DNA of 64,000 nucleotides from SAR202 cluster bacterium bin87. Its GTDB lineage: Bacteria > Chloroflexota > Dehalococcoidia > Lucifugimonadales > UBA3495. The position numbers were made by a program, and so were the translations under genes. Of this stretch, positions 983-25,482 are shown piece after piece (positions within the stretch are counted from its first letter, which is position 1; every line of letters starts with the position of its first letter). Location of the stretch: positions 62,001 through 126,000 of the forward strand of contig MPNC01000007.1 in the NCBI GenBank assembly GCA_002238825.1, in the 5' to 3' direction. The notes below the pieces were generated by a model that saw only the letters and a list, made by a program, of their open reading frames with translations, made no database searches and was not told the origin of the DNA.

Positions 983-990
983 GGGTGGGG

Positions 991-2040: not shown

Positions 2041-2425
2041 GATTGTTCCCATTGTCTTGTGTTCGTAGTGCGCCTTATTACTCGCGGGCTTTCCGCAGGG
2101 ATAAATGGACAGTGGCCGGCCTGGATTGGAAGGGCACAACGCCGACGGTCGCGACCTTGTTGCCGATGAACTACGGATACACCACATTGGAAATCCGGCA
2201 CGGCAAGCTCGTTTTGACGTGGTTGTTACCAGTAACCACGCCGCCGTGAGGCGGGCCAAGGCCCATCGCGGGTTGCGGCGCAGATTGCCGCTGTAGTCTA
2301 CGCCAGCGTCGGCGGAGTCCTGGCGGGTACCCGCGTCTCCGTAAGCCGCGTCGCCCATGCTATAATTTTGCCGTGCCCTTCGGGATACTGCGCGATTCGG
2401 GTCGCTACAGTACCCGAGCAACTGC

Positions 2426-2515
2426 GGAGAGGTGCCAGAGTGGACGAATGGGCGCGACTGGAAATCGCGTAGGGGTTAACGCCTCTCGCGGGTTCGAATC
2501 CCGCCCTCTCCGCCA
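2426..2515 (+). tRNA. tRNA-Ser(GGA)
   Basis: The acceptor stem GGAGAGG (2426-2432) pairs with CCTCTCC (2505-2511), then G and an encoded CCA. The anticodon loop CTGGAAA within CGCGA/TCGCG gives GGA. The long variable arm and the T arm GCGGGTTCGAATCCCGC are typical of serine tRNA. Its 3' end is the probable integration site of an island, because the last part recurs at 25175-25198. Confidence 0.95.
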
Positions 2516-2516
2516 T
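2493..2516 (+). other. attL-like copy of tRNA-Ser 3' end
   Basis: 24 bases at the tRNA-Ser 3' end (T arm to CCA plus one base) are repeated exactly at 25175-25198. Tyrosine recombinases commonly use tRNA 3' ends and leave such direct repeats, and a broken tyrosine integrase ends about 110 bases before the second copy. The intact tRNA copy is on the left, as expected when an incoming element regenerates the gene. Confidence 0.7.
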
Positions 2517-2935
2517 CAAGTCCAAGTTTTGAGTGTGAAATGCCGACCCTGACAGTATGGTTATCACTTTGATTATCACAACTGGTACGGGGAGCAGGTC
2601 GGTTCTGCCGTTTTCTAAGGGCTTGTGAAAGCCTCGTGATCGAGATTCTCCGAGCTGAGTAGTCCGCGGGTGTAGGCTCCCCTCACGCTGACCCAGCCGC
2701 ACTGGTCGTTCAACCATAACGCCATGTAGCTCGCCCCGGCCCATCTGTCCACTTGTCCGGGCCATCGCGGCGATACAGTTCTGCCCCACCCAGGAGTACA
2801 ATCCCTCCGTTGAAGAGGCCAAACGACCTGACCGACCAGGAACTTCCTATATCGAGCGCATTGCCACTTCAGTTAGCTCAATTACTGGAACGGCGTATTT
2901 GGCCCATCAAACTCCGAACAACCGGACGTGCGAAG
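2517..2935. other. Island left end, no gene recognised
   Basis: The first 65 or so bases after the tRNA (to about 2585) resemble the bases after the second att copy (25199-25255). Both contain a tttgagt block, a cgacc..tga block and an identical tttgattatcacaac (2568-2582 and 25238-25252). This may hold recombinase arm sites or mark the end of related elements. I see no convincing gene between here and 2936. Confidence 0.4.
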
Positions 2936-3568
2936 ATGTTGGCGCCTGGAATAATTTCGGGGCACGTGACCCAGATTAATCCGGCTTCCGGCCAATGGAT
3001 GATCGTCGACGTAGGCTTTTCTAGTAGGGGGCCGACCTGCGGCGTCTGGACTGCCGAGGGAGGACTTGGCGTGGTCACATTGGGAGGCCTTATTGCGTTG
3101 GCTACTAGGGAAGTCCAGGCAGGTGCCCCAGAGCCTCTGAACTTGCTAATCGAAGCTCCTCTGTCAGTGGCATTTCAGCCAAACGGTAATCCTGCTCGTC
3201 GCGCATGCGACATTTTCGGGAAGAGGTACCGAGATTGGTATGTGAACGCAGGGGGCACAACATATATCGCCGCCGGTTATTTGTTGCGGGCGTTACACGC
3301 GTGTCAAATACAACGCCAAGTGAGGTTGTTCGAAGGCCATCTTTCATTCAAGATGCGAGCAAAAGCTCCGAAATCTCGAGAGGAACGGACCGCAGCACAT
3401 ATAGAAGACGCAGCGGACTTGAGAGAAGCAGTTTGGAGTGGAGCGAATGCTCAGATATTCGCTCCCGATCAGCTCCTCCAAGATAACGCGCACCGTATCG
3501 AGCCGTCTTCGCCCTTTTTGGGTAAGGATGTCATAGCTCCAGTAATCCGTATTAACCCCCAGCGTTAA
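2936..3568 (+). CDS. Hypothetical protein, possibly RNase-H-like (DUF429-like)
   Basis: An open frame of 210 codons from ATG 2936 (an upstream in-frame start at 2753 also exists). The sequence looks protein-like and is less GC-rich than its neighbours. Two strand-like segments with acidic residues, WMIVDVGFSSRGPTCGVWT and LNLLIEAPLSVAF, followed later by QVRLFEGHLSFK, resemble the layout of DUF429/RNase-H-fold proteins. That is only a visual similarity and I do not claim a function. No clear ribosome binding site was found. It lies between the att-like left end and an HsdR fragment, so it is probably cargo of the island. Confidence 0.45.
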   Translation: MLAPGIISGHVTQINPASGQWMIVDVGFSSRGPTCGVWTAEGGLGVVTLGGLIALATREVQAGAPEPLNLLIEAPLSVAFQPNGNPARRACDIFGKRYRDWYVNAGGTTYIAAGYLLRALHACQIQRQVRLFEGHLSFKMRAKAPKSREERTAAHIEDAADLREAVWSGANAQIFAPDQLLQDNAHRIEPSSPFLGKDVIAPVIRINPQR

Positions 3569-3683
3569 ATCCGTGGCGAAGCAGCACGCCGCTACGCCAA
3601 GAGCATGCCACTACAACGACAACTGCGCTTTTGGATCATCGCAGTTTTCGCTGCAATACAAGCGGAATTTTCAAGAAGCTCCG

Positions 3684-4067
3684 ATGACCCCGGAACAGAA
3701 AGCCCACACACACATCGACTCTCTGCTGGAGCAGGCAGGGTGGGTGGTGCAGGATGCTTATTCGGTGAACCTGTCCGCCGGACGGGGCGTTGCGATCCGC
3801 GAATTCGGGCTGAAACCCGGCCATGGTACCGCTGATTATCCGCTGTACGTTGATGGCAAGGCGGCGGGCGTCATCGAGGCAAAGCCGGCCGGCCACACCC
3901 TCACGGGCGTGGAGACCCAATCGGGCAAGTACAGCGACGGTCTGCCGGACGCGCTGCCCGCGCACCGCAAACCGCTGCCCTTCCTGTACGAGACCACCGG
4001 ATCGGAAACGCGCTTCACCAACCTGATCGATCCGGAGCCACGCAGTCGCGGCGTGTTCGTCTCCTAG
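3684..4067 (+). pseudogene. N-terminal fragment of a second HsdR
   Basis: From ATG 3684 (MTPEQKAHTHIDSLLEQAGW) to the stop at 4067 the protein matches residues 1-129 of the full HsdR at 25483 almost residue for residue. It keeps the nuclease core GHGTADYPLYVDGK...IEAKPAG and ends RGVFVS where the intact gene goes on to FAFHTPDALADW. Sequence after 4067 no longer matches, so this is a truncated copy lacking the helicase and C-terminal domains. It could still be expressed as a 127-residue nuclease-domain peptide, but no clear ribosome binding site is visible. It lies about 1.2 kb after the first att copy; the intact HsdR lies 0.3 kb after the second. Confidence 0.85.
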
Positions 4068-4389
4068 GCCGGTCACCTGGCCGCGGGTACATCGTTACCG
4101 AAGACCAGATGATTCATTAATGCCGCGACAATCCGCGAAAAACAGGCCGACAGAAACGCGCATCGCCTTACGTAAATTGCCTTCAGCGAGTTGCTGGAAG
4201 CATTTTGGGCACAGCAGCACACCGCAACCGGTCTCCTGTTTTCCGATCTCTACAGCCCGGGACGCTGTTGCTACTCGGGCGGCAGGCTCTGCCGGGTATG
4301 CCAGCGGGGCAACGCCGCTTTCACCCCTCCAGTTCCATCCGCCAACTGAGCCGCCGGCAGCGAATGCCCCGCAGAGGAAATTTTTGTAG
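4068..4389. other. Spacer, nothing recognised
   Basis: Short open frames exist on both strands, and one plus-strand frame has a Cys-rich stretch (RCCYSGGRLCRVCQRGN). None is convincing. It may be the degraded start of the broken gene that follows. Confidence 0.3.
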
Positions 4390-6308
4390 GTGAAGGCACA
4401 GATGCCATCCTGCGCACCCAATGCCTTCACTCTGGACGAGGCTCACGCCGCGGCGAGGGCCGCAATGTTCAAGCCATCGCGTCTAGGCAACCGCGGCCGG
4501 TTGAGCTTCAACTCCGGCGCGTGCCCTGGCCGACCTGAACGTCGACCAGCACCACCTGGTATCGAGGACGGATGGTTCTCGCCGGTCCGCGAACTCGGTC
4601 CCCTGCACCTTGAACTCGCGGTCCACAATCCTGGCGACCGGTGCCAGGACGTGGCCAGGCGGCCATTGGCGGCGGCCACCAAGCAGGAACACTTCGACAA
4701 CCACGTGGGCCAGGTGTGGGCCGGAATATTCCATCACGAACAAGACCGCAGGCAACCGAGCCTCTACGTCAGGGACGGCAAGTTGGTATACCTGAACTCG
4801 GGCGACCACGGAGACCATGAAATCACCGAACACACCGGCGAGAGCATCGCGACACTGGCGGCGTCCGCCGTGTTCTGGTACCTGGACTGCCAGGCAAGAG
4901 TCATTGCAACGTAGCCGGAAACCGACGCGGACCCAGAGGCCTGGCAGGAAGCGGCCGCCCTGATTGACGGCATCGAAGGCGACGAGCACGCCTGGGTTAC
5001 CCGCGATGTCAGGGAACATAGCAACGCCCGACCCTAGATCACCTACGCGCTGCACACTCCGAAACGCCATCACACCCAGCGGACCGTGACCAGCGCGCTG
5101 CTCATCGACCTGCCCGAGGACCTGCCCCAGCTGGATGCGGTGATCACCCACCCTTTCCTCACCGGCAACGGAGACCGGTTGGTGACCGAGGAGGGCTATC
5201 ACCCCGAAGAGCGGGTGTATCTGCAAAACCGGATCCTGTTCTCACCGGTTTCGATAGACCGGGCGGTGGGCGACCTGGACGACCTGTTCCACGATTTCCC
5301 CTTCGCCAACCCAACCGCCGACCGAGCCAACCTGTGCGCCGCCATCGTCACCCGCATCTGCCGCCGTTCCTATGACATCGCTCCCATGTTCATGTTCGAC
5401 AAGCCCAAGTCGGGCATTGGTGCGACGCTCCTGGCCAACCTGGTGGCGGTGCTGACCACCGGCAGAAAGTCGGAGCGCGTCACCTACGGCAACGGAGAGA
5501 TGCTGGAGTTCGAGAAGCGGGTGGCCGCCGCCTGTCGCGCCGCCAACGGCGTCGTGTTGCTGGACAACCTGTCCAGCGCGATGCTCGCGGAATTGCTCAC
5601 CGCGGACGACAGCTTCACCGCCCGGGACCTTGGCACGAGCCGCAACATGACCTTCACCCCCGCAACTTCGTCATCGTCGGCACCGCCAACAACGTGATCA
5701 TGACCGCCGAACTGGCCAACCGCACTCTTCCAGTGCGCCCCAACACCGGCGTAGAGCGGCTGGGTCAACGCACCGGCTTCCGCAACCCGGACGTCAAGGA
5801 GCATCCGCTGGCCAACCTGCCCAGGTACCGCAACGCGTCTCTGTCCTTGGCATTGCTGGCTGGAAAAGGGAAGACCGCCCGCTTCGGAATTGCCCCAGGG
5901 CCCCCGATGCTATCCCGCCCGGCAGCGGCAGACGGCCTCCAGGATGGCGGCCGCCGGACTCACCGACTTCGCCGGCAACACTGTTGAGTTCGAGCAACGG
6001 GCCGTCACCGAAGCTGAAGCCGCGCAACGTCCCTTTGTGCAGTGGTGGTGGAGCTGGGCGACCCCAACGACGACGATGCTGACGGGATGCCCAAGGTCAA
6101 GGGCGCCAACGACAAGCAGAGGCACTCCAATCTCACCAAGCTGATCAAGACCTGGCTGGGCCAGACCTATGAGCTCGAGGACGCCACCGTGCATATCGTA
6201 GTCGGTCCCATGTACGCTAGCCGTTACCCGACCTTCGTCCTGCAGGTGGCCGACGCCGATGTGGGTGCGTTCCCCTTGCTTCCCCCTGAGCTCCAGAAAC
6301 CGTTGCAG
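4390..6308 (+). pseudogene. Broken primase/helicase-type mobile-element replication gene
   Basis: A long protein-like reading is broken by two in-frame TAG codons (4912 and 5035) and at least three frameshifts (near 5660, 5900 and 6040). Blocks in order are: NHVGQVWAGIFHHE and VRDGKLVYLNSGD; SALLIDLPEDLPQLDAV...HPFLTGNGDRL; an ATPase-like block MFMFDKPKSGIGATLLANL, where the Walker lysine is lost (GIGATL for GxGKTL); VVLLDNL; NFVIVGTANNVIMTAELANR, equivalent to the sensor segment of phage/plasmid primase-helicases; then MAAAGLTDFAGNTVEFEQ and ELGDPNDDDADG. This order resembles the C-terminal helicase half of primase-polymerase proteins of integrative elements. The reading stops at a small inserted element starting at 6309. 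Non-functional as it stands. Confidence 0.6.
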
Positions 6309-6446
6309 CTCATGCGTACCCAGTTTGTCTTCGCGAGGAGCGTAGCGACGTGACGATCTCGTTGCTGAAAGAGACCCCGGCTGCCATCACGATATTGCCA
6401 CGCTTCGCTCGCAACGACAGTTCGAGTAAAACCGGGTACGCATGAG
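6309..6446. mobile_element. 138-bp MITE-like element with 13-bp terminal inverted repeats
   Basis: The ends CTCATGCGTACCC (6309-6321) and GGGTACGCATGAG (6434-6446) are perfect inverted repeats. The interior is a REP-type hairpin (gaggagcgtagcgacg...cgcttcgctcgc). Same length and same architecture as the element at 7640-7777. It interrupts the broken primase/helicase gene. The flanks (ccgttgcag and cgacgaccc) do not form a target duplication, so one flank may have been rearranged. Confidence 0.7.
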
Positions 6447-6954
6447 CGACGACCCATGTTGACAAAGTTGCTCAACGCCCTTTTTCCGCGCCGTAGACCT
6501 GCGTCGCGGAGCCCCATCACAAGGCTGGATAAGCGCACGGCATGACCGCGGGCACGATGATCGAAAGGGGCGCATCGTCCCCCGAGCTGGACTTTGCGCA
6601 AAATCTACAAAGAGCAATGGATGTTCCCGTTCTGGGACGGCACCAAACGTGCCAGGTGCCGGAAGTTTTTGCACTGTCCACAATTACCCTCGACATTTAA
6701 GAACTCCCGGGTGCCCCGATCAACCATTCTCGACCGTCATCGCTCATGTCACCCCAAAATGCGTAAAGTCCAGCTGAGATCATGCTGCACTTTCGCGATT
6801 CACCCGCCGACTGGAGCGACGGATACACCGCCGGTTTGCGGGATGCCACCCGACGTCGAAACCGGCACACATCTGAGGAGTATATGAAACGCCGCGGACA
6901 TTGAGCCAGTGATCGCCAAGGACTTTGTACCACTGCGAGATCGCTGCGCTCGCA
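6447..6954. other. Spacer with possible small ORFs
   Basis: Two short plus-strand frames look mildly protein-like: one from ATG 6542 (MTAGTMIERGASSPELDFAQ..., 52 codons) and one from about 6783 (MLHFRDSPADWSDGYTAGLR..., 40 codons). Neither has a clear ribosome binding site or a recognisable family. Confidence 0.3.
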
Positions 6955-7375
6955 TTGGCACAAGCGGATAACCGAATGGCCCTGTTTCTCCAGCGGGGCG
7001 CGCCGTGGTGACACCGACTCTCGATAGCTGATGCCTGCGATGACTACCTGGCAGCCGGCGTTGGCCCTGTGGTCCAGAGTGGTTTTGCTCAGGATGGGAT
7101 CGCCAAAAAAGGCTCAGCCATTCCTCCACGGCCCGGTTACTGGTGACGAGGAAGCCGGTCGCCCCACGGCGGTTGAGGATGAGGTCGTCGAGCATGAGCA
7201 AATCGGGCGTCAGGAAGGATCGGAACGAGCGATTCACCGGGCAGGCCGCCCACTCTCGTCTGCGTAATGACGTTGAAGCAGTCATCGGCGTCGCCGAAAC
7301 GCACGGTATAACCGGCGCGGGTCGTCGGGTAGCCCCGGGCCCGGGCCAGGAAACTCTTGCCGACACCGGCCAACC
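6955..7375 (-). pseudogene. IS21-family istB remnant
   Basis: Three minus-strand frames give consecutive pieces of the IstB ATPase helper of IS21 transposition: AGVGKSFLARARGYPTTRAG (Walker A region, from about 7370); NRSFRSFLTPDLLMLDDL (Walker B) and GFLVTSNRAVEEWLSLF (about 7245-7085); then DHRANAGCQVVIAGISYRES near 7000. Two frameshifts and a deletion of about 15 residues between Walker B and the ITSNR motif make it non-functional. The N-terminal domain is missing. An istA remnant on the same strand lies 16 kb away at 23197-23669. Confidence 0.75.
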
Positions 7376-7639
7376 CCGACAGGAGGGCGTGACCGTGACC
7401 TGACCCGCGAAAAACGATCCGGGGTCACCCTCAGGATCCTGGACAAAATGGGGGATCAAACATGCCAGATAGGAAGCACACGGCCGAGGCGCAGCTTCCG
7501 CCGAGCGTGATGTGGGTCTCCCATCCCGCGTTGGCGGTCAGGGCCAGCCGCCGGGAATTGGACACCCGACCTCCCGCGGCCGCAAAGGCATGGGGCCGAA
7601 TGGTCATGCAGCTGGAATTCCGTCGGAGCGGTTCTGCAC

Positions 7640-7777
7640 CCCCACGCGTATCCAGTTTCACCGGAACCGTCATTGGGAGCGAAGCGCGGCAACCTCGTTG
7701 GGGCACGGAATACTACTGCGGGAACGAGATCGCCACGTCGCTTCGCTCCTCGCGATGACAAAATGGGTACGGGTGAA
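7640..7777. mobile_element. 138-bp MITE-like element with target duplication
   Basis: The ends are diverged copies of the CTCACGCGTACCCA terminus (left CCCACGCGTATCCA; right, reversed, TTCACCCGTACCCA). An 11-base direct repeat GTTCTGCACCC lies at 7631-7641 and 7778-7788, compatible with a 9-bp target duplication plus chance matches. The interior is the cattgggagcgaagcgcgg...cgcttcgctcctcgcgatgac hairpin found throughout the window. Confidence 0.75.
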
Positions 7778-7787
7778 GTTCTGCACC

Positions 7788-8308
7788 CGCTTGCGATTGG
7801 GCACGTGGGCGCAGAACAATCCATAGTGACCGCGTCTCCAGCGGACGCCTCCGCCTCCGGGATGGCGGCGACCTCGACGCCAGGCCGCCAACACACTGTC
7901 GACGCCTCTGACGCGCCCCTTCACCGTGACCTCCGAGGCGCTCTCCCCGGGCGTTCCGCTGTCGTTCGACGCTGCGGTTTCAGCATCATGCAGTTCCGCC
8001 TGATCTTGGAGCCGCCAACTATCGCCTCATTCTCCCCGTAATCGCTCTGGCCTGGGCACCGGAGTGGAACCTTTCGGATGGTACAGTTTGTCATCCTCAG
8101 GAATCTTGGGAGATCGCTCCGTCTTGGCAAGCCGCCCAATGGGATTAAAATCACCTCTGCCAATCAATTACGTTGATGTGTACCGATTTGACGAGTCCTC
8201 CTGATAGTCTGATCGCCAGCATTTTGACCAGTCACGATTGGTAACATTTACCCTCGTGTCCGCACGACATCTGAAGTATGTTTTCAGCGGGGACCCCGGC
8301 CGAATTGC
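7788..8308. other. Spacer, nothing recognised
   Basis: No convincing gene on either strand; only short out-of-frame reading frames. The segment from about 8170 is less GC-rich and is probably the upstream region of the histidine kinase gene. Confidence 0.4.
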
Positions 8309-9601
8309 GTGGTCGCCGGTGGGATGGTCCGATCCTCAAGACCAGACAGACGCAAGCAAGTGAATCAAGACGGGGACCCTGAGTTGCTGAAAGCAAGCAT
8401 GGCATCCGTACGGAATTGGGTAACGGCGGGGATCCCTGCCGACCCGGACGTGGTGCTGTTTGCCATCCGGATCTCGGTCTGGGGCCGCTGGTTCATCTGG
8501 CTAGTGGCCGTGTTTCTCACCTCTTACCGTCCGAGCTTCTGGTATCCCGAGCACCCCGAATACCTGGTCATTTCGATCGTCTTGCTCGTGGTCAACGGCG
8601 CCGCCCACCACCGGGTCCGGACCAGCAGACCCATCACGTGGCGGTGGCTGCTGTTCCTTAGCTTCATGGATGTGGCCCTGACCACCTACGGCGTTGCCAT
8701 CAACGGCGGATTTTCCAGCTTCATCTTCGTTGCCTACTATCCGGCGGTCGCCGTGGTTCCTGTGGTCTTCTCATCTCTCCGCCTCAGTCTGGCCTGGACG
8801 ACGATCACGGCGGCAATCTACATCTCCGTTTGCCTCGCGACGGGCTCAGTGGACTTCGCCGCCGGCAATGACCTCGCGCTGGTGTCGAGGGTCGCGGTGT
8901 TGTACATCCTGGTGGTGGGAATCGGACTGATAACCCGGTTCGAGCGCTTCAGGTGGCAACGTTCGGTGGCGAGGGAACGCCAGATGCGCCAGGACCGCAT
9001 CGAGGTGTCCCAGCGGATTCACGACACCATCGCTCAGACGGCGTACATGATCGGCCTGGGGATTCACCACGCCAGACAGCTGGCCAGCGACTCCAACGAC
9101 GAACTGGTTGCCGCCCTTGACGCCACTGCGGAGCTGACGAGGTCAGCCATGTGGGAGATGAGAGGTCCCATCGACGCCGGCCAGATCGTTGAAGGCAGAG
9201 AGCTGGGGCGTGTCCTGTGGTCGCACTGCGCCACGTTTCAGAGAATCACCTCGGTGCCGGCCGAGATGTCGCAGTCAGGGACCGAGCCCCCGCTTTCCGC
9301 AGAGACCCGGGACGGGCTGTTCTCCATTGCCCATAACGCCTTGACCAACGCCTTCCTGCACGCGCGTCCAGGTAAAGTCCAGGTGCGGCTGGCCTTTGAG
9401 GCGGACCGGATCACGCTGTCCATTTCGGATGACGGGGTGGGTCTTCCCGTGGACTATGCGGAAAGGGGTCGCGGCTTCAGTGGCATGGAGACAGACGTAC
9501 AGCGGATGGGAGGCATTCTCACCGTGGAGAGTTCCAAAGGGGGAGGCGAGACCATCATTACTTGTGTGGTGCCGCGTGAAGCCAATCAAGGAGGAGCCTG
9601 A
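8309..9601 (+). CDS. NarL-type sensor histidine kinase, membrane-bound
   Basis: A 430-codon sensor kinase. After a basic start it has about five membrane segments between residues 50 and 210 (for example WGRWFIWLVAVFLTS, YLVISIVLLVVNG, ALVSRVAVLYILVVGIGLIT). A HisKA_3 dimerisation box follows, with the phospho-accepting histidine in QRIHDTIAQTAYMIGLG (His238), and then a HATPase domain with N box AHNALTNAFLHARPG, G1 DDGVGLP and G2 GFSGMETD. There is no recognisable extracellular sensor domain, so the signal is probably sensed in or near the membrane. The start is uncertain: GTG 8309, ATG 8324 and ATG 8399 are possible and none has a strong ribosome binding site. It is followed at once by its response regulator. 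Confidence 0.85.
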   Translation: MVAGGMVRSSRPDRRKQVNQDGDPELLKASMASVRNWVTAGIPADPDVVLFAIRISVWGRWFIWLVAVFLTSYRPSFWYPEHPEYLVISIVLLVVNGAAHHRVRTSRPITWRWLLFLSFMDVALTTYGVAINGGFSSFIFVAYYPAVAVVPVVFSSLRLSLAWTTITAAIYISVCLATGSVDFAAGNDLALVSRVAVLYILVVGIGLITRFERFRWQRSVARERQMRQDRIEVSQRIHDTIAQTAYMIGLGIHHARQLASDSNDELVAALDATAELTRSAMWEMRGPIDAGQIVEGRELGRVLWSHCATFQRITSVPAEMSQSGTEPPLSAETRDGLFSIAHNALTNAFLHARPGKVQVRLAFEADRITLSISDDGVGLPVDYAERGRGFSGMETDVQRMGGILTVESSKGGGETIITCVVPREANQGGA

Positions 9602-9602
9602 G

Positions 9603-10280
9603 GTGTCGCAGACGGATTTGATCAGGTTGATGCTGGTGGACGACCATCCCATAGTGTTGAGCGGTTTGCGCAACGTCCTGGAAGCATCGGGCCGCTTCGA
9701 CGTGGTGGCCCAGGCTCTCGACGGCGCGGAGGCCGTCCGCATCGCCCTGGCCGTGAAACCGGAGGTGATCATAATGGACGTGGTCATGCCGGAGAAAGAC
9801 GGAATTGATGCCTGCCGGGACATCATGGAAGCCCTTCCCGACACTCGGGTCCTGGTGCTGACGGCGTCGACCGAGGATGATGCGGTCATCCAGGCGATCG
9901 CGGCCGGCGCCGCGGGATTTGTTCAGAAATATTCGCCTCCCGAGGACTTGTTCGAAGCTGTCCAGGCGGTGGCCGAAGGTCGATTGCAGGTTCCTGACCA
10001 GGCAGTCAGAAAGGTCTTCAGCATGCTCCGCCACGGTCAGATTTCCCAGCCCCGCCGGGCTCTGGACAGCCTCACGCAACTGGAGCAGGAGGTCCTGAAG
10101 CTGTTTGCCACCGGGCGGAGCTACTCCCAGATCGCCGAGGCCAGGAGCAACAGTCCAGTGACTATCCGGAATACCATTTACCGCATCCAGAGCAAGCTGG
10201 GCATAGTGACCAAACCGGAACTCGTCATCTGGGCAGTGCGGAGCGGGCTGCTGGACGACTCCGCGGCGGAGGCCGAGTGA
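9603..10280 (+). CDS. NarL/FixJ-family response regulator
   Basis: A 225-residue DNA-binding response regulator. The receiver domain shows LMLVDDHP (acidic pair at residues 13-14), phospho-acceptor Asp59 in IIMDVVMPEKDG, and the switch Lys in GFVQKYS. The C-terminal LuxR-type helix-turn-helix is at about residues 155-215 (LTQLEQEVLKLFATG...IAEARSNSPVTIRNTIYRI). The GTG start at 9603 lies one base after the kinase stop, preceded by AAGGAGGA at a good distance, so the two genes are coupled. Its targets are unknown; the nearest candidate genes are the giant surface proteins that follow, of which the first is convergent to it. Confidence 0.92.
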   Translation: MSQTDLIRLMLVDDHPIVLSGLRNVLEASGRFDVVAQALDGAEAVRIALAVKPEVIIMDVVMPEKDGIDACRDIMEALPDTRVLVLTASTEDDAVIQAIAAGAAGFVQKYSPPEDLFEAVQAVAEGRLQVPDQAVRKVFSMLRHGQISQPRRALDSLTQLEQEVLKLFATGRSYSQIAEARSNSPVTIRNTIYRIQSKLGIVTKPELVIWAVRSGLLDDSAAEAE

Positions 10281-10283
10281 AAG

Positions 10284-10318
10284 CGGGCTCATCCGTGCCG
10301 TCGCCCACGATGAGCCCG
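10284..10318 (+). terminator. Stem-loop after the response regulator
   Basis: CGGGCTCAT (10284-10292) and ATGAGCCCG (10310-10318) form a perfect 9-bp stem with a 17-base loop, three bases after the response regulator stop. There is no T run, so termination may be weak or Rho-assisted. Confidence 0.5.
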
Positions 10319-10453
10319 ATGTCTCCCGGGCAGTCCTGCGCCAGCGCCGCGTCCAATCGAACCCCTATCGTCCCCTCTGCGTCGCGAGCGGAAATGACCA
10401 TGCTGTCTGCCGTTCATCGACCCGGGCGCTTCCGGGCCCACCACCGGCCTCAA

Positions 10454-16392: not shown

Positions 16393-16793
16393 CCGGCTCG
16401 TACATGACTTCATATGTCGGTTTGTATGTGACCGTATGCCGGCCTCGCGTCTGACACGTCCCCCGGCTCGTATGTGACTCATACCCCCGCCTGTGCCTGG
16501 CCCATATGCCGGCCTCGTCCCTGACCCGTCTCCCGGCTCGTATGTGACTCATACCCCCGCCTGTGCCTGGCCCGTATGCCGGCCTCGCCCCTGACCCATC
16601 TCCCGGCTCGTATGTGACTCATACCCCCGCCTGTGCCTGGCCCGTATGCCGGCCTCGCGCCTGACACGTCTCCCGGCTCGTATGTGACTCATACCCCCGC
16701 CTGTGCCTGGCCCATATGCCGGCCTCGCGCCTGACACGTCTCCCGGCTCGTATGTGACTCATACCCCCGCCTGTGCCTGGCCCATATGCCGGG
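16393..16793. repeat. 70-bp tandem minisatellite, 5.7 copies
   Basis: Units start at 16393 (diverged), 16463, 16533, 16603, 16673 and 16743 (partial), each opening CCGGCTCGTATGTGACTCAT, with exactly 70-base spacing. The inner units differ at only a few positions. The units are contiguous with no unique spacers, so this is not a CRISPR. The last copy ends about 50 bases before the start of the rightward giant gene, so the array occupies its 5' leader or promoter region. Confidence 0.95.
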
Positions 16794-16841
16794 TTTGTAC
16801 CGGAATGAATCTCGATAACGCGGAAGCGAGTGGGTATTACC

Positions 16842-19800
16842 ATGAATCTGAAACGCAGCTTGTCTCAATCACTGGCATATTTTCCGAACGCGATCCGGTC
16901 CATAGTACGGCTGGCGCGCAACAAATTTGCCCTGCGCCGGTCCTTCACAGGCACACGCTCCATAGTCAACCAACGCCAACGCGCAACGGCACGGGCAAGG
17001 ATGCTCGGGAGGGAAAGCAAACGCCTTGGCGGCCGTCCGTCGTCATCCCCGGCCTCTGCACTGAAAGCACCAGCAATCGCAATGCTGCTGGTCGCCGCCG
17101 CGCTGGCACTTACGCTCCTCAGCGACGGAACACCCGCTCACGCCCAGGACGCGGGCGTCGGCGCCGCCGAACGGGTGCTGCTCAGCAACCTGGGAGAGGC
17201 GACCTCGTCCGGCACCACCGCTCTGTCGAGCAATGACGCGGAGATCAGGTTCGTCACCGCAACGTACGAACCCGGCTACATCATCACCCGCGTGGACCTC
17301 AAATTCACCGGCCCGGCCAACTCCGCCGCCGACCTGCCGTTCGTCGCGCTGCGAAACCACATCGGCACCGAAATCACCCTGACGGGTTCGCCCACGGACC
17401 TGGGCAGCAACACCTACGCGTTTACGCCGGATTCCACGGCCAGAGTCGCCTCCAACTCGGGATACTTCCTCCTGATCGAAGGCGGCACCATGAGCCTGGC
17501 CCAGACCCTCTCCAATACAGTCGACACCGGTAGCGGCCACCGCTGGCTAACTGTCCCCACCGATGGGTACACCCGGGCACACGATTCCACCGGCGACACC
17601 AGCGCTCTCACCGGCGGCGCCCAGTTCCTGTTCAGCATCCGCGGCCGCGTCATCCAGCCCACCGTCCCCTACGTCGCAAACACCGGCCAGACGAACACAG
17701 GTAATCTGTCGCTGCTCAGCGATGACCGTGCCCAGCCCTTCACCACCGGCAGCGACGCCGCCGGGTACACACTGCACAGCGTCACGGTCCTGATGCGGGA
17801 CAGCGACGCCGCCGTGTTCCGCAACCGACCCATCCATCCCCTCCCCGACCTCGCAATTCACCGCGGCTCGGCCAACGGACCGAAGGTCGCCGACCTGCCC
17901 ACTCCCCCCAGCGGATGGTCTCAGGAATACGTGCTCGACACGCCCGTCACGCTGGATCCGTCCACCACCTACTGGGTCGTCGCCGCAGGCGGCAAAGGCG
18001 AGTGGGACGGCACAGGCGCCGCCGAGGACTCCGGCAACGCCGCCGGCTGGTCCATCGGTGACAACCACGAATTCCGAACCACCGGCAACACCCGCGCGTT
18101 CACCCCGAACTCGAGCACCGGGGCCCTCAAGGTCGGCATAAACGGACCGCCCGTCAACTCTCCAGCCACGGGCAAGCCAGCCGTCACAGCGCCCACCTTC
18201 CGGGTGCCAGCCGTGCTCTCAGTGGACCTCAGCGGCATCACGGACACCGACGGCATCGCCGACGCCGAACGCGCCGTAACCGCCTACCGCTGGCAACGGT
18301 TCGCCTCCGACGGCGTTACCCAACAGCGCGCCAACATCGGAACCGCTGCAACCTACACCCTCACCGACGCCGACATCGGCAAGACCATCAGGGTGACCGT
18401 CTCCTTCGAGGACGACAATGGCTTCTCCGAAGGCCCACTGGCCAGCGACGCCACATCGGCCGTCTGGGTGTGCCCGGAGCCCGACCTTCAGGGCGGCGCC
18501 ACCCTCATCGAAGGACGACGCCAGATCGGCGTTGCAGCCTACAGGGTAGGCGGAGCTGACCGCCTCGGCTACCGAGACATCCTCCATCGGCAACATGGCA
18601 CGCTGAACGACAATACGTTCACCACCACCGCAACCACGTCGGCGTACACCATTGAAGCCATCGAAAAGACCAGCACAGCCGTATGGTTCAACCTGGACAA
18701 GGACCTCGCCGACGCTGACAAACAGGCACTGGCACTGCACGTCTGCGAAGAACACTACGCACTCAGCGACTTCACGCTGAGTGGCGGCGGCGGACATGAA
18801 TACTTCCTCGCGTCTAGCCAGGACTGGTCCACCTTCGATGAACTCACGTTCCACATCACCGAAGACCTAGTCGCGCCGTCCTTTGTCGAAGCCTGGGGCG
18901 ACGGAACCTCCCTGGTGATAGCCTTCAGCGAAAAACTGCGCCCAGCAGCGTCGCTGTCCCACAGCAGCTTCTCGGTGACCAAGGGCTCCAACGACGACAC
19001 CGTCGCACTCGCTTCCGGCACGCCAACCATCTCGGGCAACATGGTTGAACTCACCCTGTCCACCGCCATCGTGGCCACGGACACCAACATCAAGGTCTCC
19101 TACAACAAGCCGAGCTCGGGATCCGGAAACAGGGTCGCCGACCTGGTCGGCAACCAAGCAGCCAGCTTCAGCAGCCAGCCGGTGATCAACTTGCCAGCCG
19201 ATTCCGTCGCCCCCACCCTGGCGCAGACCAACCCGGCTGTGCTGGCCGCGGACGGCAAGACCCTCACCCTGACAATGAACGAGTCGATGAAAACCGACTC
19301 ACTGCCGGTCGCGACCGCCTTCACAGTGGAGGCAACGCCATCCGGAGGCAGCGAGGCCGAGGTACACCTCGATGCGACGACTCCCGTCGAGGTGAACGGC
19401 AGCGTGGTGACACTGCACCTCGGCACGCCCATCGGCCACAACGACACCAACGTCAAGGTGAGCTACACCGTGCCCGGCAGCGGAGACAAACTTCAAGACC
19501 GCGCCGGCAACGACCTGGCATCCTTCACCGACCAAGCGGTGACCAACAACAGCGACATCCCTCGCATAGGCATCGAGGCGCTCTACAGCGACGCCACGCC
19601 TATGATCGCCCTGCCAAGCTTCCGGTTCACGTCCTCCAAAGCCCTGAGCGCGGACCTGGACCTGAACCTCGAGATGACCCAGACGGGACAACACTTCTCC
19701 TTTTCAGAAGTGACGCTCGACGCGAACACAACCACCGTCGATGTTCAACCTCTGGCCTTCGTCGACGCCATCAACGAGATCAACACGGACGGCACGGCGA

Positions 19801-22598
19801 CCATCACCATAGTCGGCGGAGACGACCATCTGCCAATGCCTGCACCCCGAAACTCCGCCACCGTGGAAGCCAAGATGCCTCCCAGCGGCCCCTCCGTCTG
19901 GGTGTCACACCAGCAACTCGCCTACTCGGCCAATGAAGGCCAACCCTTCAGCATTGGCGTGGTCTTCAACGCCGGCGAAGGCGTGGCTCAGCCCAGGGAA
20001 GGCTTCCACGTCGCTTTGCTCACCGATGATACCGGCACCGCCACCATCGGCGACGACTACACACACATCTCGGCAAACATCCCCGTCACGCCCGCAGACT
20101 GGAGCGCAACCAACGCCGGCGGGTACACCTACACGAAGCAGCAGGACATCACGGTCATAGACGACGGGCTCTACGAGCCTGACGCCGAGACCTTCGTGGC
20201 GTATCTGCAGGCAAGCCAGGGAGTATCCGACAAACTGGTGATCCCGAACCGGAACGACGCCGACGGCGAGGCCACCATCAGCATCACGAACGTCAACACG
20301 CTGCGTGTGCTGGACATCGACATCACGTCGACGCCCATCGACAACTACTACGACGCCGGAGACGTCATCCGCATCAAGGTGACGTTCAACGGAGACGTGA
20401 CGGTCGACACCTCCAGCGGGACGCCTCAGTTCGCCATCGAACTGGCCGGCAGCACGCGGCAAGCTACCTACCTCAGCAGGCTGGGCACCTCAGAGCTGAT
20501 CTTCGACTACACCGTCACCACCGCCGACCACGACGATCACGACGGCATATCGTGGTCCGCCAACTCCCTCAACCCGAACGGCGGAACCATCCACTTCACG
20601 CACATCGACGTGACCAAGCAGGTGACCGCCAGCCTGACCCACGACGCCCAAGCGCCTCTGACGGACCACAAAGTGGACACCCGGAAGCCCGCACTCGAGT
20701 ACGTCGAGGTGGACGGCTCTGCACTGACGCTCGGCTACACCGAGGACCTGAAGACCAGCGCACCGCCCACCAGCGCCTTCTCGGTGAGCGTGGACGGAGC
20801 CCAAAGCACCAACCCGACCAACGTCGCCATCAACGGCAACATCGTGACGCTCACGCTGACGACCGCGGTCGGACCGGGCCAGAGCGCAACGCTGTCCTAC
20901 ACCAAGCCAGGACAAAGTTCAAACCCGCTTCAGGACCTGAGCGGCAAGGAAGCCGACTCGTTCAGCAACATGTCGGTGGACCAAGCCAGCCACCTGGTCA
21001 ACTTCCGGGCCACTCCGGGCGACCGGCAGGTTCTCCTGGAATGGGACCAACTTACCGACAGCACACTCACGCGGTACCAGTATCGCTACATGAGCACCGC
21101 GGATAGCACGTGGAACCCCGACTGGACCAACATCCCAGGCAGCAACGCCAGCGCCACGTCCTTCAGGGCGACGGGCCTGACCAACGGCCTCGAGTACACC
21201 CTCCAGGTGCGGCCCGTCTACACCGTCAACGCCCAGGACGAACCCGGCGATGAAGCATCGATCAAGTCCACCCCGCAGGGCGCATTGTCGGCCCCCATCG
21301 GACTGAGCGCCACGCAAGCCGGCACCGGGCAGATAACCCTGACCTGGAACGACCCGGGCGACATCACCATCACCGGATACCAGTACCGCTACCGCAACCC
21401 CAGCGACAGCAGCTGGAACCCGGACTGGACCGATGTGCCGGGAAGCCATGCCGGCACCACGTCACACACCTTGTCCGGCCTAGATTGGGAAGTGCTCTAC
21501 ACCTTCGAGCTGAGGGCCGTACGAGGAAGCACGGCTGGCCCATCCACACAAGCCCAAGGAACGACTCTGGGAGACACCACCAGTCCATCCGCAGTGCGCG
21601 AACTCAGGGCCGTGGTCCACAGCAACTTCCGCATCGAGCTGTACTTCCGAGCGCCGGAAGAGTCGGGCGACGCCGCCCTCAGCGGTTTCGAGTACCGCTA
21701 CGCCGACAGCAACACGGTCCCCGAAGCCACAGAGTGGGAAACCGCGACGCCGACCCAGGTGTCAAACAGAACCATAAACATCACGGGCCTTACGGCCGAC
21801 ACGCTCTACACCCTCGAGGTGCGGGCCGTGAACGCAAACAGCAAGCAAGGACCCGTAACCCGTGTCCAAGCCACGACAACCGCAACACCACAGACCAGCA
21901 CGCCCAGCGCGCCCACTGGACTCACCGCCACCCCGGACGAACCGGACACGGAACTCGTCAGCGTTGATGACACGTTCACCGGTCGTACCCTGCCCGCCAG
22001 GATGTCTTTCGTAGACGTCACCCTGGAATGGGAGCCAGCAACAGACCACGGCAACTCCGTGATCCACTACGTGTACCGATTCGCAGAGGGCAACAGCGTG
22101 CCGACCGCCACGCCATGGCAGTTCGCCACGAGCCACAATAGCAGCGACGAACTGAAGGTCGTTGCGAACAATCTGAAAACCAGCACCCTGTACACACTGG
22201 AAGTGGCGGCACAGGCCGGCAACGGCACTACCGGGATGCCTACGTCAGTCCAGATCACGACGCCAGACTACCCGGGCTCCCACTACACCCTGTCCGCGCC
22301 CAGCTCCGCTGACGAAGACGAACCCTTCACCATCACCGTGAGGCGCACCAATCGAAACGACGGGGAGAGCTCAGTCCTGGTGGAGATTCGTGGCCCCGGC
22401 GAGAATGACATAAGGATCCTGGCGGCGGAGTTTGGGGCAGATGACGACAGCACCACCGTAAACTACACCGTTGACGACGACGATCTGACCACAACCGGCC
22501 GACAGATCAGAGCCCGCATCGGCGCAGTGAGCAACGATACTGGTACCTACTCAGTTGAATGGCACATCGTGGACATCAACAACATTACGACCCAGTGA
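16842..22598 (+). CDS. Giant secreted FN3/SWM/Calx-beta surface protein, 1918 aa
   Basis: Paralogue of the divergent 1655-aa protein. From ATG 16842 (MNLKRSLSQS) it has a long Arg/Lys-rich leader of about 75 residues, then hydrophobic AIAMLLVAAALALTLL and TPAHAQ, as in its partner. Mature part in order: two choice-of-anchor-like modules (VLLSNLGEATSS; QPFTTGSDAAGYTLHSVTV); an Ig-like module (AYRWQRFASDG, TYTLTDADIGKTIRV); one CPEP...LHVCEEHYALS domain; two SWM repeats (FVEAWGDGTSLVIAFSEKL); a Calx-beta pair (GTATIGDDYTHI, IDDGLYEPDAETF); one SWM; about five FN3 modules (YQYRYRNPSDSSWNPDWTD); and a final Calx-beta-like domain. No anchor motif is seen. GTG 16830 is an alternative start. The minisatellite just upstream could affect its expression. 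Surface or adhesion role inferred. Confidence 0.85.
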   Translation: MNLKRSLSQSLAYFPNAIRSIVRLARNKFALRRSFTGTRSIVNQRQRATARARMLGRESKRLGGRPSSSPASALKAPAIAMLLVAAALALTLLSDGTPAHAQDAGVGAAERVLLSNLGEATSSGTTALSSNDAEIRFVTATYEPGYIITRVDLKFTGPANSAADLPFVALRNHIGTEITLTGSPTDLGSNTYAFTPDSTARVASNSGYFLLIEGGTMSLAQTLSNTVDTGSGHRWLTVPTDGYTRAHDSTGDTSALTGGAQFLFSIRGRVIQPTVPYVANTGQTNTGNLSLLSDDRAQPFTTGSDAAGYTLHSVTVLMRDSDAAVFRNRPIHPLPDLAIHRGSANGPKVADLPTPPSGWSQEYVLDTPVTLDPSTTYWVVAAGGKGEWDGTGAAEDSGNAAGWSIGDNHEFRTTGNTRAFTPNSSTGALKVGINGPPVNSPATGKPAVTAPTFRVPAVLSVDLSGITDTDGIADAERAVTAYRWQRFASDGVTQQRANIGTAATYTLTDADIGKTIRVTVSFEDDNGFSEGPLASDATSAVWVCPEPDLQGGATLIEGRRQIGVAAYRVGGADRLGYRDILHRQHGTLNDNTFTTTATTSAYTIEAIEKTSTAVWFNLDKDLADADKQALALHVCEEHYALSDFTLSGGGGHEYFLASSQDWSTFDELTFHITEDLVAPSFVEAWGDGTSLVIAFSEKLRPAASLSHSSFSVTKGSNDDTVALASGTPTISGNMVELTLSTAIVATDTNIKVSYNKPSSGSGNRVADLVGNQAASFSSQPVINLPADSVAPTLAQTNPAVLAADGKTLTLTMNESMKTDSLPVATAFTVEATPSGGSEAEVHLDATTPVEVNGSVVTLHLGTPIGHNDTNVKVSYTVPGSGDKLQDRAGNDLASFTDQAVTNNSDIPRIGIEALYSDATPMIALPSFRFTSSKALSADLDLNLEMTQTGQHFSFSEVTLDANTTTVDVQPLAFVDAINEINTDGTATITIVGGDDHLPMPAPRNSATVEAKMPPSGPSVWVSHQQLAYSANEGQPFSIGVVFNAGEGVAQPREGFHVALLTDDTGTATIGDDYTHISANIPVTPADWSATNAGGYTYTKQQDITVIDDGLYEPDAETFVAYLQASQGVSDKLVIPNRNDADGEATISITNVNTLRVLDIDITSTPIDNYYDAGDVIRIKVTFNGDVTVDTSSGTPQFAIELAGSTRQATYLSRLGTSELIFDYTVTTADHDDHDGISWSANSLNPNGGTIHFTHIDVTKQVTASLTHDAQAPLTDHKVDTRKPALEYVEVDGSALTLGYTEDLKTSAPPTSAFSVSVDGAQSTNPTNVAINGNIVTLTLTTAVGPGQSATLSYTKPGQSSNPLQDLSGKEADSFSNMSVDQASHLVNFRATPGDRQVLLEWDQLTDSTLTRYQYRYMSTADSTWNPDWTNIPGSNASATSFRATGLTNGLEYTLQVRPVYTVNAQDEPGDEASIKSTPQGALSAPIGLSATQAGTGQITLTWNDPGDITITGYQYRYRNPSDSSWNPDWTDVPGSHAGTTSHTLSGLDWEVLYTFELRAVRGSTAGPSTQAQGTTLGDTTSPSAVRELRAVVHSNFRIELYFRAPEESGDAALSGFEYRYADSNTVPEATEWETATPTQVSNRTINITGLTADTLYTLEVRAVNANSKQGPVTRVQATTTATPQTSTPSAPTGLTATPDEPDTELVSVDDTFTGRTLPARMSFVDVTLEWEPATDHGNSVIHYVYRFAEGNSVPTATPWQFATSHNSSDELKVVANNLKTSTLYTLEVAAQAGNGTTGMPTSVQITTPDYPGSHYTLSAPSSADEDEPFTITVRRTNRNDGESSVLVEIRGPGENDIRILAAEFGADDDSTTVNYTVDDDDLTTTGRQIRARIGAVSNDTGTYSVEWHIVDINNITTQ

Positions 22599-22611
22599 CG
22601 CCCGTCCTAGC

Positions 22612-22647
22612 CGCAGTCCACTTCCCCACAACGTCAAGTGGACTGCG
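22612..22647 (+). terminator. Strong stem-loop after the giant gene
   Basis: CGCAGTCCACTT (22612-22623) and AAGTGGACTGCG (22636-22647) form a perfect 12-bp stem with a 12-base loop, 13 bases after the stop codon. No T run follows. Confidence 0.6.
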
Positions 22648-22749
22648 TCCAAGTCATCTTCAGGCAGCCAATCCGGCAAGGCTTGGGCCAGCAGCAGTTG
22701 CTGGTCTGGATCATAGGGAAGGCAGGTCTTCCTGATCGTAGGTCTACGC

Positions 22750-23190
22750 CGGTTTCACACTTGGACCATCTTACCCCCGAACGCCTCGGCAAACCGTGTT
22801 TCTCGGACACGCTGCCAGTTTCGAGAGTAATACCCCTCAGCGCGGGCGCTGGCGCGCTGGCACGGCAGGCCCGCTCACGGCTCGTGGTCACGCTGGACGG
22901 ACCAGCGCTTTCGTCAAGGGTGATGGTCAACCACGGCGGAATTTCAGCGTCGTCCGATCCGTACTCGGCCGACACTGGACAGTTTCGGCGGGCTCGACCA
23001 CTCCGTCATTGATGGCCTCCACCGCGAGTGTTGCAAGAACATGGTTCGCTTCGAGGATCAACTGGTAGCCATCAGCAGAGGCCATCCGCGTCCAGGGGTG
23101 AGACCATGTAGTCTTCACCAAAGGTGGCGGACCCGCCGAAAATCTGCGGGAAGGGTCTTCAGGTTTTCGCTGGCGATCTTGATGGCGAAA
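22750..23190 (-). pseudogene. Calx-beta surface-protein fragment
   Basis: Several minus-strand frames read through a Calx-beta-like domain: GGFAIKIASENLKTLP, GSATFGEDYMVSPLDADG, ANHVLATLAVEAINDGVVEP (then AETV) and AEYGSDDAEIPPWLTITLDE. Multiple frameshifts join the pieces. The domain type matches that in the intact giant proteins, so this is probably the ruin of another surface protein gene, now next to an IS21 remnant. Confidence 0.55.
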
Positions 23191-23196
23191 CCGCCA

Positions 23197-23669
23197 TCAG
23201 GGACCTCGGTGATGCGATCGCTGCCCACGGACAGCCGCAACGCGGGTTTCCTGTCGTTGTCTTTGCTGGTTATCCGACAGGGGTTGGCGCACTCGGAATC
23301 GCACCGGCTCCCCCTGCATCCAGCAACTCCTGAACCGCACCACCTTCAACCGGTCGCCGGTGAGCCACTGGCAACTCTGATCGGACCACGGAGACAGGCT
23401 GTCCTCAACCGGCGTCTCTACCTGCCGCGGCCCAGCCCGGCTGATCCCAGCCAGCCGGCTCAACTGCTCTTCGCGGGGAGCCGGTACGTCCTGGGTAATT
23501 TCCTCCGCTGTCGCCGCCGCCAGAGCCTGCCCCTGCGAAAGCAGGGGTACTTGCGCACCGTCGCCCGCGACCACCCCATCCCTTCCGCTATCTGACGCTG
23601 GCTGCTTCCCGCCTGCCAGCGGCGAACTACTTCCTGTATTTCCACTCGGAGCACCTCCTTGTGCGCCAT
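23197..23669 (-). pseudogene. IS21-family istA remnant
   Basis: The reading from 23669, MAHKEVLRVEIQEVVRRWQA then GSSQRQIAEGMGWSRATVRK, is the N-terminal helix-turn-helix of IS21 IstA transposases. A frameshift near 23550 leads to REEQLSRLAGISRAGPRQVE and PWSDQSCQWLTGDRLKVVR. Only about 155 N-terminal residues survive; the DDE catalytic domain is absent. Confidence 0.7.
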
Positions 23670-23795
23670 CGCTGCACCTCAAAATCGAAGTGAGGCAATG
23701 GTCGCGGTGGTGGCGCCCACCGGTGGTCATAGACCTTGGCGAACTGGCCTATAGTTCGCGGCGATTTGCAGTCAACCTGCGGCGCCGTCAAACAG

Positions 23796-24305
23796 TCATC
23801 GTCGAAGGCAGCGTGAACCGGGTGGCTGAACACCGCTACGGCAGGGAACGAGTCCACCGAACCGACTGCAGGCTGGCGCCCGACTCGTAGCCGCCACACC
23901 AGTATCACGGTCCGCCTGTTCCTCCCCATGCCCGTCGGTTCTTGACCACTGCGCAATGAACTGGAAAATCGAGAAATTGAGCTTGTTGTTCAGCACGCGC
24001 AAGACGGGATCTTTCTCGACCCACGATGGGACGCGTTCCGGCACGCCCGGATCCTCGTTGCTGGCGTTCTCAAAGCATGGGGCCGAGAACTCGCGCGGCG
24101 GCATGGACCGCAACGTCCGGCCATCGACATTACGCACCAGCGTGTCCGGATCCCGCCATGCCAACTGTGAGCAGTAGGCCGCAAGAGCATCGGCGCCCAC
24201 CACGGCCCATCCAGCGGGAGTGGGAACTTCCCCGAAACGCGATCGCCCGGAAATTTCCTTAAGACCGCGTACTCTCTTTTCTTCGATTTTGGCAAGCTTG
24301 GTCAT
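23796..24305 (-). CDS. Hypothetical protein, doubtful
   Basis: A 169-codon frame starting MTKLAKIEEKRVRGLKEISG. The first 130 residues look protein-like (VLNNKLNFSIFQFIAQW), while the Arg/Cys-rich tail looks like non-coding sequence, so the gene may be truncated by a frameshift. No family recognised. It overlaps the start of the broken integrase on the other strand by only a few bases or not at all. Confidence 0.3.
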   Translation of the reverse strand: MTKLAKIEEKRVRGLKEISGRSRFGEVPTPAGWAVVGADALAAYCSQLAWRDPDTLVRNVDGRTLRSMPPREFSAPCFENASNEDPGVPERVPSWVEKDPVLRVLNNKLNFSIFQFIAQWSRTDGHGEEQADRDTGVAATSRAPACSRFGGLVPCRSGVQPPGSRCLRR

Positions 24306-24322
24306 CGGCCCCACCCACACCC

Positions 24323-25064
24323 ATGGAACCCACGCCCCATTGGCGTATCCGGTTATCAGGGGCCTGCAAGTACGCGATGCGAAAGGAGAAACTCGACCGC
24401 AACGTGGCTGCCCTCGTCGCGTTGCCGCCCGTCACCAAGCGCGAGGTGATCCCCCGGAGATCGACACCGTCCAGCAAATGCTCTCCCTGGCCGAGTCCGA
24501 GAACCATCCCCTTTATCCGTTCCTGCTCGTTCTGACCTACACCGGGATGCGACAGGGATAACTGCGGGGCCTCACGTGACGCCGCGTGGACCTGGCGGTC
24601 GTGTTGATTAACGTGGTGGAAGGCACGGTCAGGACGCAAGAACGCGGCAACGTGAAGTACCTCTCCAAGACCGACAAGGGGGCCGCGAAATTGACCTGCC
24701 AGATGTGGCGGTACATTTCCTGCGCAACCATCTGGTTAGCCAGGGTGAAGGGGTCAAACCCGATGATCTGATCTTCCCTGGCCCCGACGGGGACATGATT
24801 CCCGAGACCACCATGATGCGGCAGCTGAAAGAACTGGGGGCTCGCGTCGGAGTCCCTGAAGTCAACTTCCACGCCTTCCGGCATTTTCACGCCAGCGTGT
24901 GCCTCGAGGATTACCAGAACGCGTTCGCGACGTCCCGTCGGCTCGGGCATGGCAGCATCAAGACCACCATCGACACGTATGGCCATCTGCTGAAGGGGAG
25001 GCAGAAATATCTGGCCCAGTCTTTCGCGAAAACCCTGGAACACACCGACGAATCCCGGCCCTGA
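24323..25064 (+). pseudogene. Tyrosine recombinase (integrase), broken
   Basis: Pieces in different frames form a phage-type integrase. The end of the core-binding domain is YAMRKEKLDRNVAALVALPP (from about 24373). The start of the catalytic domain is IDTVQQMLSLAESENHPLYP then TYTGMRQG, broken by TAA at 24559 and TGA shortly after. RVDLAVVLINVVEGTVRT follows, and then in another frame VAVHFLRNHLVSQGEGVKPD, HAFRHFHASVCLE (HxxR), LGHGSIKTTIDTYGHLLKG (catalytic Tyr) and a normal C-terminus at 25064. At least two frameshifts and two stops make it inactive. Its position about 110 bases before the second tRNA-Ser 3' copy is the usual place for an integrase next to its att site. Confidence 0.85.
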
Positions 25065-25174
25065 TTCCCGCCCCGCGTCGATCCGACTCGATCCTGCAGG
25101 TACACGCGCGCACCTGCGGGATCGGTTTTTGCTGGCCCTGACACTCCACGCGATCCTACTCAGTCGCGAGTGGA

Positions 25175-25198
25175 TTCGAATCCCGCCCTCTCCGCCAT
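25175..25198 (+). other. attR-like copy of tRNA-Ser 3' end
   Basis: Exact repeat of the last 24 bases around the tRNA-Ser 3' end (2493-2516). The sequence before it cannot fold into a tRNA, so it is not a second gene. The following 55 bases resemble those after the first copy, and HsdR starts 285 bases further on. This fits the junction between two related elements inserted in tandem. Nothing else is recognised from 25065 to 25482. Confidence 0.7.
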
Positions 25199-25482
25199 TA
25201 AATCCCGTGTTTGAGTATAGGCTTTCGACCGTGATAGTTTGATTATCACAACCGGAACTTGCACATAGATCTGTTTCGCCGTTGGTGCGGGCGGGATGCG
25301 CTCATTGCAGCGAGGTTTACTGGGCCAACTATCTGTTGAATTTGGCCTCCCCCGAGGATTACCCGGGGAACGCGCACCGGGGTTTCGTCGTGATGCGGCC
25401 GGTGGTGGACTAGCGTTCGCCGTTTGGCTACGATGGCGACCATGCAATCTGACGATTGCGTTTCACGGTTGATCAAGCAGCC

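Follow-up and report, generated by a model that had tools for sequence, protein, structure and literature searches.

The stretch of DNA considered here (the window) comprises 64,000 nucleotides of the SAR202 cluster bacterium bin87, corresponding to positions 62001-126000 of contig C65 in a genome of 4.96 Mb and 67 contigs (G000), and was compared with relatives in the same genus (14 genomes, including G000) and family (50 genomes). Close to its left end is a gene for tRNA-Ser(GGA) (2426-2515, plus strand), which scores as an intact tRNA with both ARAGORN and Rfam. The gene is followed by two consecutive units, unit A (2517-25174) and, from 25199, unit B, that very probably are what is left of integrative islands which targeted tRNA-Ser and were stacked in a tandem array, with the junction at 25175-25198 in common.

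The 3′ end of the tRNA gene, the target of these elements, constitutes the attachment core. The 24-mer TTCGAATCCCGCCCTCTCCGCCAT, which is the T-arm/acceptor 3′ end of tRNA-Ser(GGA) and the longest repeat touching this gene, is found exactly at 2493-2516 (plus strand; attL of unit A) and again at 25175-25198 (plus strand), where, as comparison with the family member G008 shows, it closes unit A on the right and opens unit B on the left. No third site within three mismatches can be detected in the window, and 100 dinucleotide shuffles of the window yielded no match at all with up to three mismatches allowed. Elsewhere in the G000 genome the sole near-exact copy (one mismatch) is the 3′ end of tRNA-Ser(CGA) on contig C42; the two tRNA-Ser genes have a 3′ end in common, and both serve as targets for related elements.

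Gene content of the two units

Unit A encodes a two-component system and two giant FN3 surface proteins. It begins with a left-end motif (TTTGAGTGTGAAATGCCGACC...TTTGATTATCACAAC; 2517-2582, plus strand) that is common to 25199-25252 and to the tRNA-Ser(GGA) locus of the congener G010 (OX638345.1), followed by a pseudogene for a truncated HsdR N-terminus (3573-4067, plus strand; PF04313), which by blast is 87% identical over 3676-4062 to hsdR of unit B. Next is a broken primase/replication gene (4400-6308, plus strand), recognized by its homology to a Toprim-type primase of 981 aa that is intact in G001 (locus L154 on contig C9, 3452-8813, near tRNA-Gly). The element that supplied the replication gene of unit A probably has an intact relative in L154, where small genes lie in between, including one for a MerR/HTH_17-type protein.

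The two-component system consists of a sensor histidine kinase (HisKA_3/HATPase_c by Pfam; 8309-9601, plus strand) and a NarL/LuxR-type response regulator (Pfam, NCBIfam; 9396-10280, plus strand). Giant surface protein 1 (10454-15421, minus strand; 1655 aa) contains FN3, SWM, Big_5 and Calx-beta domains (Pfam) and is intact in G010 (94% aa), and its paralogue giant surface protein 2 (16830-22598, plus strand; 1922 aa, ∼48% aa to giant 1; Pfam) is preceded by a tandem array of 70-bp repeats (16435-16792, plus strand; 5.1 copies by TRF) that is also present in G010. The two-component pair and both giants are open in the window, and the giants are open in G010 as well, with ratios of non-synonymous to synonymous divergence (dN/dS) of 0.34 and 0.42, which argues that this cargo has been maintained, with the integrase and the primase both dead. 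Two further segments, 6979-7397 (minus strand; an istB fragment homologous to the IstB open reading frame of locus L151) and 23320-23771 (minus strand; an istA transposase fragment homologous to L151:15139-16761), were considered as core genes of the element and rejected as IS21-type remnants.

The right edge of unit A carries a frame-broken tyrosine integrase (24379-25064, plus strand; phrog_1 and PF00589 in domain searches). Its open C-terminal part (24705-25064) contains the HxxR box (FHAFRH) and the Tyr region (LGHGSIKTTIDTYGHL) in a single frame, the upstream half with the Arg-box lies in another frame with stops, and the stop codon at 25064 is located 110 bp before the second core copy. 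It is the only integrase on the 187-kb contig, a contig-wide search for an integrase of a third unit having returned no other; intact integrases of G001 and G010 are 40-46% identical to the fragment. No conjugation genes (relaxase, type IV secretion system or FtsK-type translocase) were found in the open frames scanned, small frames being partly covered and much of the DNA being decayed, and a search of the left 8 kb against plasmids yielded no more than short hits on tRNAs and conserved genes. The initial annotation had described a tRNA-Ser 3′-end repeat, with tRNA 3′ ends as the attachment sites, a broken integrase about 110 bases before the second copy, a dead replication gene, and a two-component system and two giant surface proteins as passengers, and all of these observations stand.

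Unit B carries an intact type I restriction system, all of it on the plus strand. Its left-end motif (25199-25252), identified by homology, is found in G008 directly after tRNA-Ser(CGA), and is followed by an intact hsdR (25456-28293), a gene for a HicB-like antitoxin (29082-29465), the specificity subunit gene hsdS (29994-31541), a Uma2-family putative nuclease gene (31545-32270) and the methyltransferase gene hsdM (32313-33782), the last gene recognized in the unit (Pfam throughout, with PADLOC for the three hsd genes). A 232-bp segment over the HicB-like gene region of the operon is duplicated (29232-29463 and 29736-29967, 80% alike). A second type I restriction operon is located on contig C54 of the same genome (19827-26523, locus L123), with hsdR and hsdM 84% and 92% identical to those of unit B at the DNA level, HsdS only 50% identical at the aa level, and a phage-type integrase nearby (14483-14914).

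The junction at 25175-25198

The similarity between the two core copies extends beyond the 24-mer, a feature that the initial annotation overlooked. Positions 2490-2567 and 25172-25249 are 77% alike (blast, E 4e-10), and 3676-4062 matches the start of hsdR at 25475-25861 with 87% identity over 387 bp (E 2e-135), while the DNA between these homologous blocks (2568-3675 and 25250-25474) is unrelated. The recurrence of both the left end and hsdR similarity after 25198 indicates that a second, related unit begins there. Segmental tandem duplication of one locus could also have produced the repeated 24-mer and hsdR, and the core, left end and hsdR are indeed collinear in both copies. We consider it exceedingly improbable, as there is no continuous homology from 2517 through hsdR, the intervening segments being unrelated, and as the copies are only 77-87% alike, with the G008 copy showing a similar degree of likeness.

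In G008 a homologue of window 25172-26123 is located directly behind tRNA-Ser(CGA), 80.8% alike over 966 bp up to the end of the contig, with the hsdR part 87% alike. Among the 50 family genomes the left end is joined to hsdR only in the window and in G008; other hsdR homologues in the family, such as those of G010 at 3.81 Mb and the second G000 copy on C54, lack the left end. The G008 arrangement implies that 25175-25198 is a junction inside a tandem array and not its outer edge. The internal core copy thus separates units that are found alone elsewhere, the left end and hsdR of unit B in G008 and the cargo of unit A in G010.

It had initially been proposed that the 22.7 kb between the repeats was one former integrative element, with native chromosome resuming at 25199, as the exact repeats and the integrase by the right copy would suggest. 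Such a single element is highly improbable, and has largely been refuted by G008: the sequence from 25199 repeats the left-end motif found at 2517 and leads into a type I restriction system, the same left end and hsdR stand directly behind a tRNA-Ser in G008, and unit A itself is a composite in which a restriction-type left end is fused to the cargo, its first 1.5 kb being unlike the G010 cargo copy. An empty site with the sequence from 25199 directly after the tRNA, which was to have marked the chromosome beyond the element, does exist in G008; it is found at the paralogous tRNA-Ser(CGA) and not at tRNA-Ser(GGA).

Mobility of the cargo and proposed assembly of the array

The cargo of unit A (window 4742-23124: the primase remnant, the two-component system and both giant FN3 proteins) can be detected in G010 behind the other tRNA-Ser gene, tRNA-Ser(CGA) (1205569-1205659, minus strand), as collinear homologues of 4742-5829 (94%), 7778-16722 (95%) and 16463-23124 (83%); synteny was established by blastn and annotation, tblastx comparison of whole 20-kb loci having been dropped as uninformative because of its low-score chains. 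About 17.8 kb on is CGCCCTCTCCcCCATTT, a degenerate copy of the tRNA end (one mismatch, none expected in shuffles). Directly repeated tRNA 3′ ends mark both edges in each genome, exact ones for unit A in the window and a degenerate one for the cargo copy of G010. Directly after CGCCCTCTCCcCCATTT is a terminator-like sequence that immediately follows tRNA-Ser(CGA) in G003, G001 and G012, and at the level of sequence G010 and these three genomes constitute an occupied/empty pair for this tRNA gene. Much the same terminator-like sequence is found after tRNA-Ser(GGA) in G001, G003, G004, G012 and G013.

In the comparison of the window with G010, the regulator, giant 1 and the sensor have a synonymous divergence (dS, by the method of Nei and Gojobori) of 0.063-0.113, and giant 2 one of 0.36, as against 0.27-1.02 for the chromosomal genes directly upstream (median ∼0.59 over the frames that look real) and 0.23-0.31 for genes to the right (41-51 kb). 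The roughly sevenfold lower synonymous divergence of the cargo relative to the chromosome indicates that it spread laterally after the species split. Within the genus the whole cargo occurs only in G000 and G010, with only the primase common to G001 (78%). Past mobility of the cargo is supported by these comparisons, namely its position at a different tRNA-Ser gene in G010 and its low dS.

The tRNA-Ser(GGA) downstream regions of relatives were considered as empty sites and rejected, at least one of them holding another element. In G013 an intact P4-type integrase of 393 aa with an Arm-DNA-bind_3 domain (domain search; locus L036 on contig C14, 6738-7919) is located directly behind tRNA-Ser(GGA), and these regions consequently count only as being without the present island. 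The G013 element has the same target in the same genus but differs in integrase class, left end and cargo. A conserved block downstream of the G012 tRNA-Ser was likewise dropped as a candidate native right flank, since it occurs elsewhere in the genomes.

The left ends can be divided into families that remain with their own tRNA gene. In both the window genome and G010, family I is found at tRNA-Ser(GGA) and family II at tRNA-Ser(CGA), and a third family occurs in other relatives, whereas the cargo is at tRNA-Ser(GGA) in the window and at tRNA-Ser(CGA) in G010. The left 1.5 kb of unit A, including the truncated hsdR, belongs to the restriction-type family, and the cargo starts after it, ∼1.9 kb inside the repeat. 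The idea that the sequences behind tRNA-Ser(CGA) of G000 and tRNA-Ser(GGA) of G010 had simply been exchanged was discarded, the common part being the tRNA end only. The tRNA-bound left ends, the internal start of the cargo and the large rearrangements between genomes would all be compatible with a cargo that never integrated site-specifically at tRNA-Ser(GGA) and instead originated at tRNA-Ser(CGA) and was moved over by recombination of the two loci, whether homologous or illegitimate (inversion or conversion), in which case the repeats would mark two older restriction-type elements. This is possible but doubtful: a cargo dS far under that of the chromosome means that DNA from outside entered at least one of the lineages, and unit A retains an integrase remnant at its right edge.

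For the tandem array, the simplest reading would be a larger original arrangement of restriction unit, cargo unit and unit B whose first internal junction was lost through deletion or recombination. In the mechanism proposed, a tyrosine integrase would insert circular elements at the 24 bases that end a serine tRNA gene, each integration restoring the tRNA 3′ end and adding a core copy so that more elements may dock alongside. As the newest unit normally adjoins the tRNA, unit A would be younger than unit B. Fusion of the primase-bearing cargo unit to a left end of the restriction type, with its truncated hsdR, would then have followed, probably when DNA within the array was deleted or recombined, after which the integrase and primase would have decayed and the cargo have stayed under purifying selection. 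Excision of unit A would presumably now be feasible only if the two cores, both intact, were recognized in trans by another integrase.

Several observations weigh against this interpretation. The G010 cargo copy has no integrase, so that excision is nowhere evident, and unit B also lacks one. No relative has an unoccupied tRNA-Ser(GGA) site that leads into the right flank seen in the window, and the usual post-tRNA sequence is absent from G000 at both tRNA-Ser genes, as a result of which the right edge of unit B has not been located. The locus is furthermore rearranged by a 20-kb inversion next to the tRNA, so that exchange of cargo between the tRNA-Ser(GGA) and tRNA-Ser(CGA) loci by chromosomal recombination is possible.

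This rearrangement concerns the left flank. In relatives tRNA-Ser(GGA) is ∼20 kb from tRNA-Leu(CAA) in opposite orientation; in G000 the same 20-kb block (C65:43607-63657) is present with tRNA-Ser beyond tRNA-Leu, in an inversion-like arrangement with an apparent breakpoint ∼100 bp before tRNA-Ser, and relative to tRNA-Ser it is inverted in comparison with G010, G003 and G012 (window 1-2515 plus C65:43607-62000, locus L045). Between the two tRNA genes, 1807-2049 is a multi-copy repeat, and whether the tRNA-Leu/tRNA-Ser junction is a true inversion or an assembly misjoin is open to doubt. That repeat and the 67-contig state of the genome might suggest that an assembly chimera links tRNA-Ser, unit A and unit B. 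This appears very improbable, because the units are 13-23% apart at their repeats and not readily confused by an assembler, and because both junction types occur in independent genomes, leaving doubt only for the tRNA-Leu/tRNA-Ser junction.

Relation to known islands and adjoining features

Tandem accretion at an RNA gene is already known, and the present locus adds a case with good comparative evidence. The ssrA islands of Dehalococcoides, in the same bacterial class, are arranged in tandem downstream of ssrA and split by 20-bp repeats, with accretion named as the process (PMC3146451, BMC Genomics 2011;12:287). As in the window, copies of the end of the RNA gene serve as separators and islands without integration genes are retained in the array. 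The Dehalococcoides islands differ in using serine recombinases (DsiB/DsiA), ssrA as target and reductive dehalogenase cargo, in place of the tyrosine integrase, tRNA-Ser target and giant FN3 and type I restriction cargo described here. Composite tRNA genomic islands are also known, such as CGI48 in Shewanella (PMC8978831), which is likewise tRNA-targeted, consists of more than one element and has a restriction-modification module in one component; there the insertion is nested and excision has been shown, whereas the units here lie end to end with a dead integrase. In sponge symbionts, FN3 attachment proteins and restriction-modification systems have been reported among the genes that symbiont lineages share laterally, FN3 genes being abundant in Chloroflexota (PMC8163846). 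Transfer was inferred gene by gene in that study, whereas the present locus points to both a vehicle and a docking site.

For an uncultured lineage with many giant FN3 surface proteins, the locus supplies a concrete vehicle and dock for exchanging them, the dock being a pair of tRNA-Ser genes that share their 3′ end and have at least three left-end families behind them, and the contrast between cargo and chromosomal dS makes the transfer measurable. The locus also illustrates a common pitfall, in that a perfect repeat with an adjoining integrase may lie between two stacked units and need not mark where the array ends.

In the array upstream of giant 2 the 70-bp unit occurs five times in tandem (95% alike), every copy including the near-palindrome GTATGTGACTCATAC, and the G010 array has four full palindromes; the array is possibly a candidate operator array for the adjoining two-component system. 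Divergence between the window and G010 is focused in the middle of giant 2 (17027-20326), where DNA identity is 66-86% as compared with 93-95% in the flanks, and at ∼18.8-19.1 kb the window giant 2 is nearer to giant 1 (66% aa) than to the G010 giant 2 (49%), a pattern that suggests allele replacement or exchange between paralogues. A mobile, switchable surface-coat module, in which the two tRNA-Ser genes would be interchangeable docks for a regulated, partly variable pair of giants travelling among Dehalococcoidia species, the sensor and regulator would control giant 2 via the array, and the middle of giant 2 would be swapped or diversified, is a speculative and on the whole unlikely extension of these observations.

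To the right of unit B, 33.8-47.1 kb contains genes for a 5′-nucleotidase, a third giant FN3 protein that lies outside units A and B (36278-40735; 1485 aa) and an Opp transporter. Positions 47127-64000 belong to the chromosomal backbone and are collinear with G013 and G012; in relatives the backbone neighbour to the left of this block differs from the content of the window there. Dispersed GTCATTGCGAGCGAAGCGCGGCAATCTCGT repeats with inverted partners are found at 7669-7761, 33858-34099, 41690-42025, 50193-50285 and other positions; very many copies exist across the genus, and several points of rearrangement and truncation lie on or near them.

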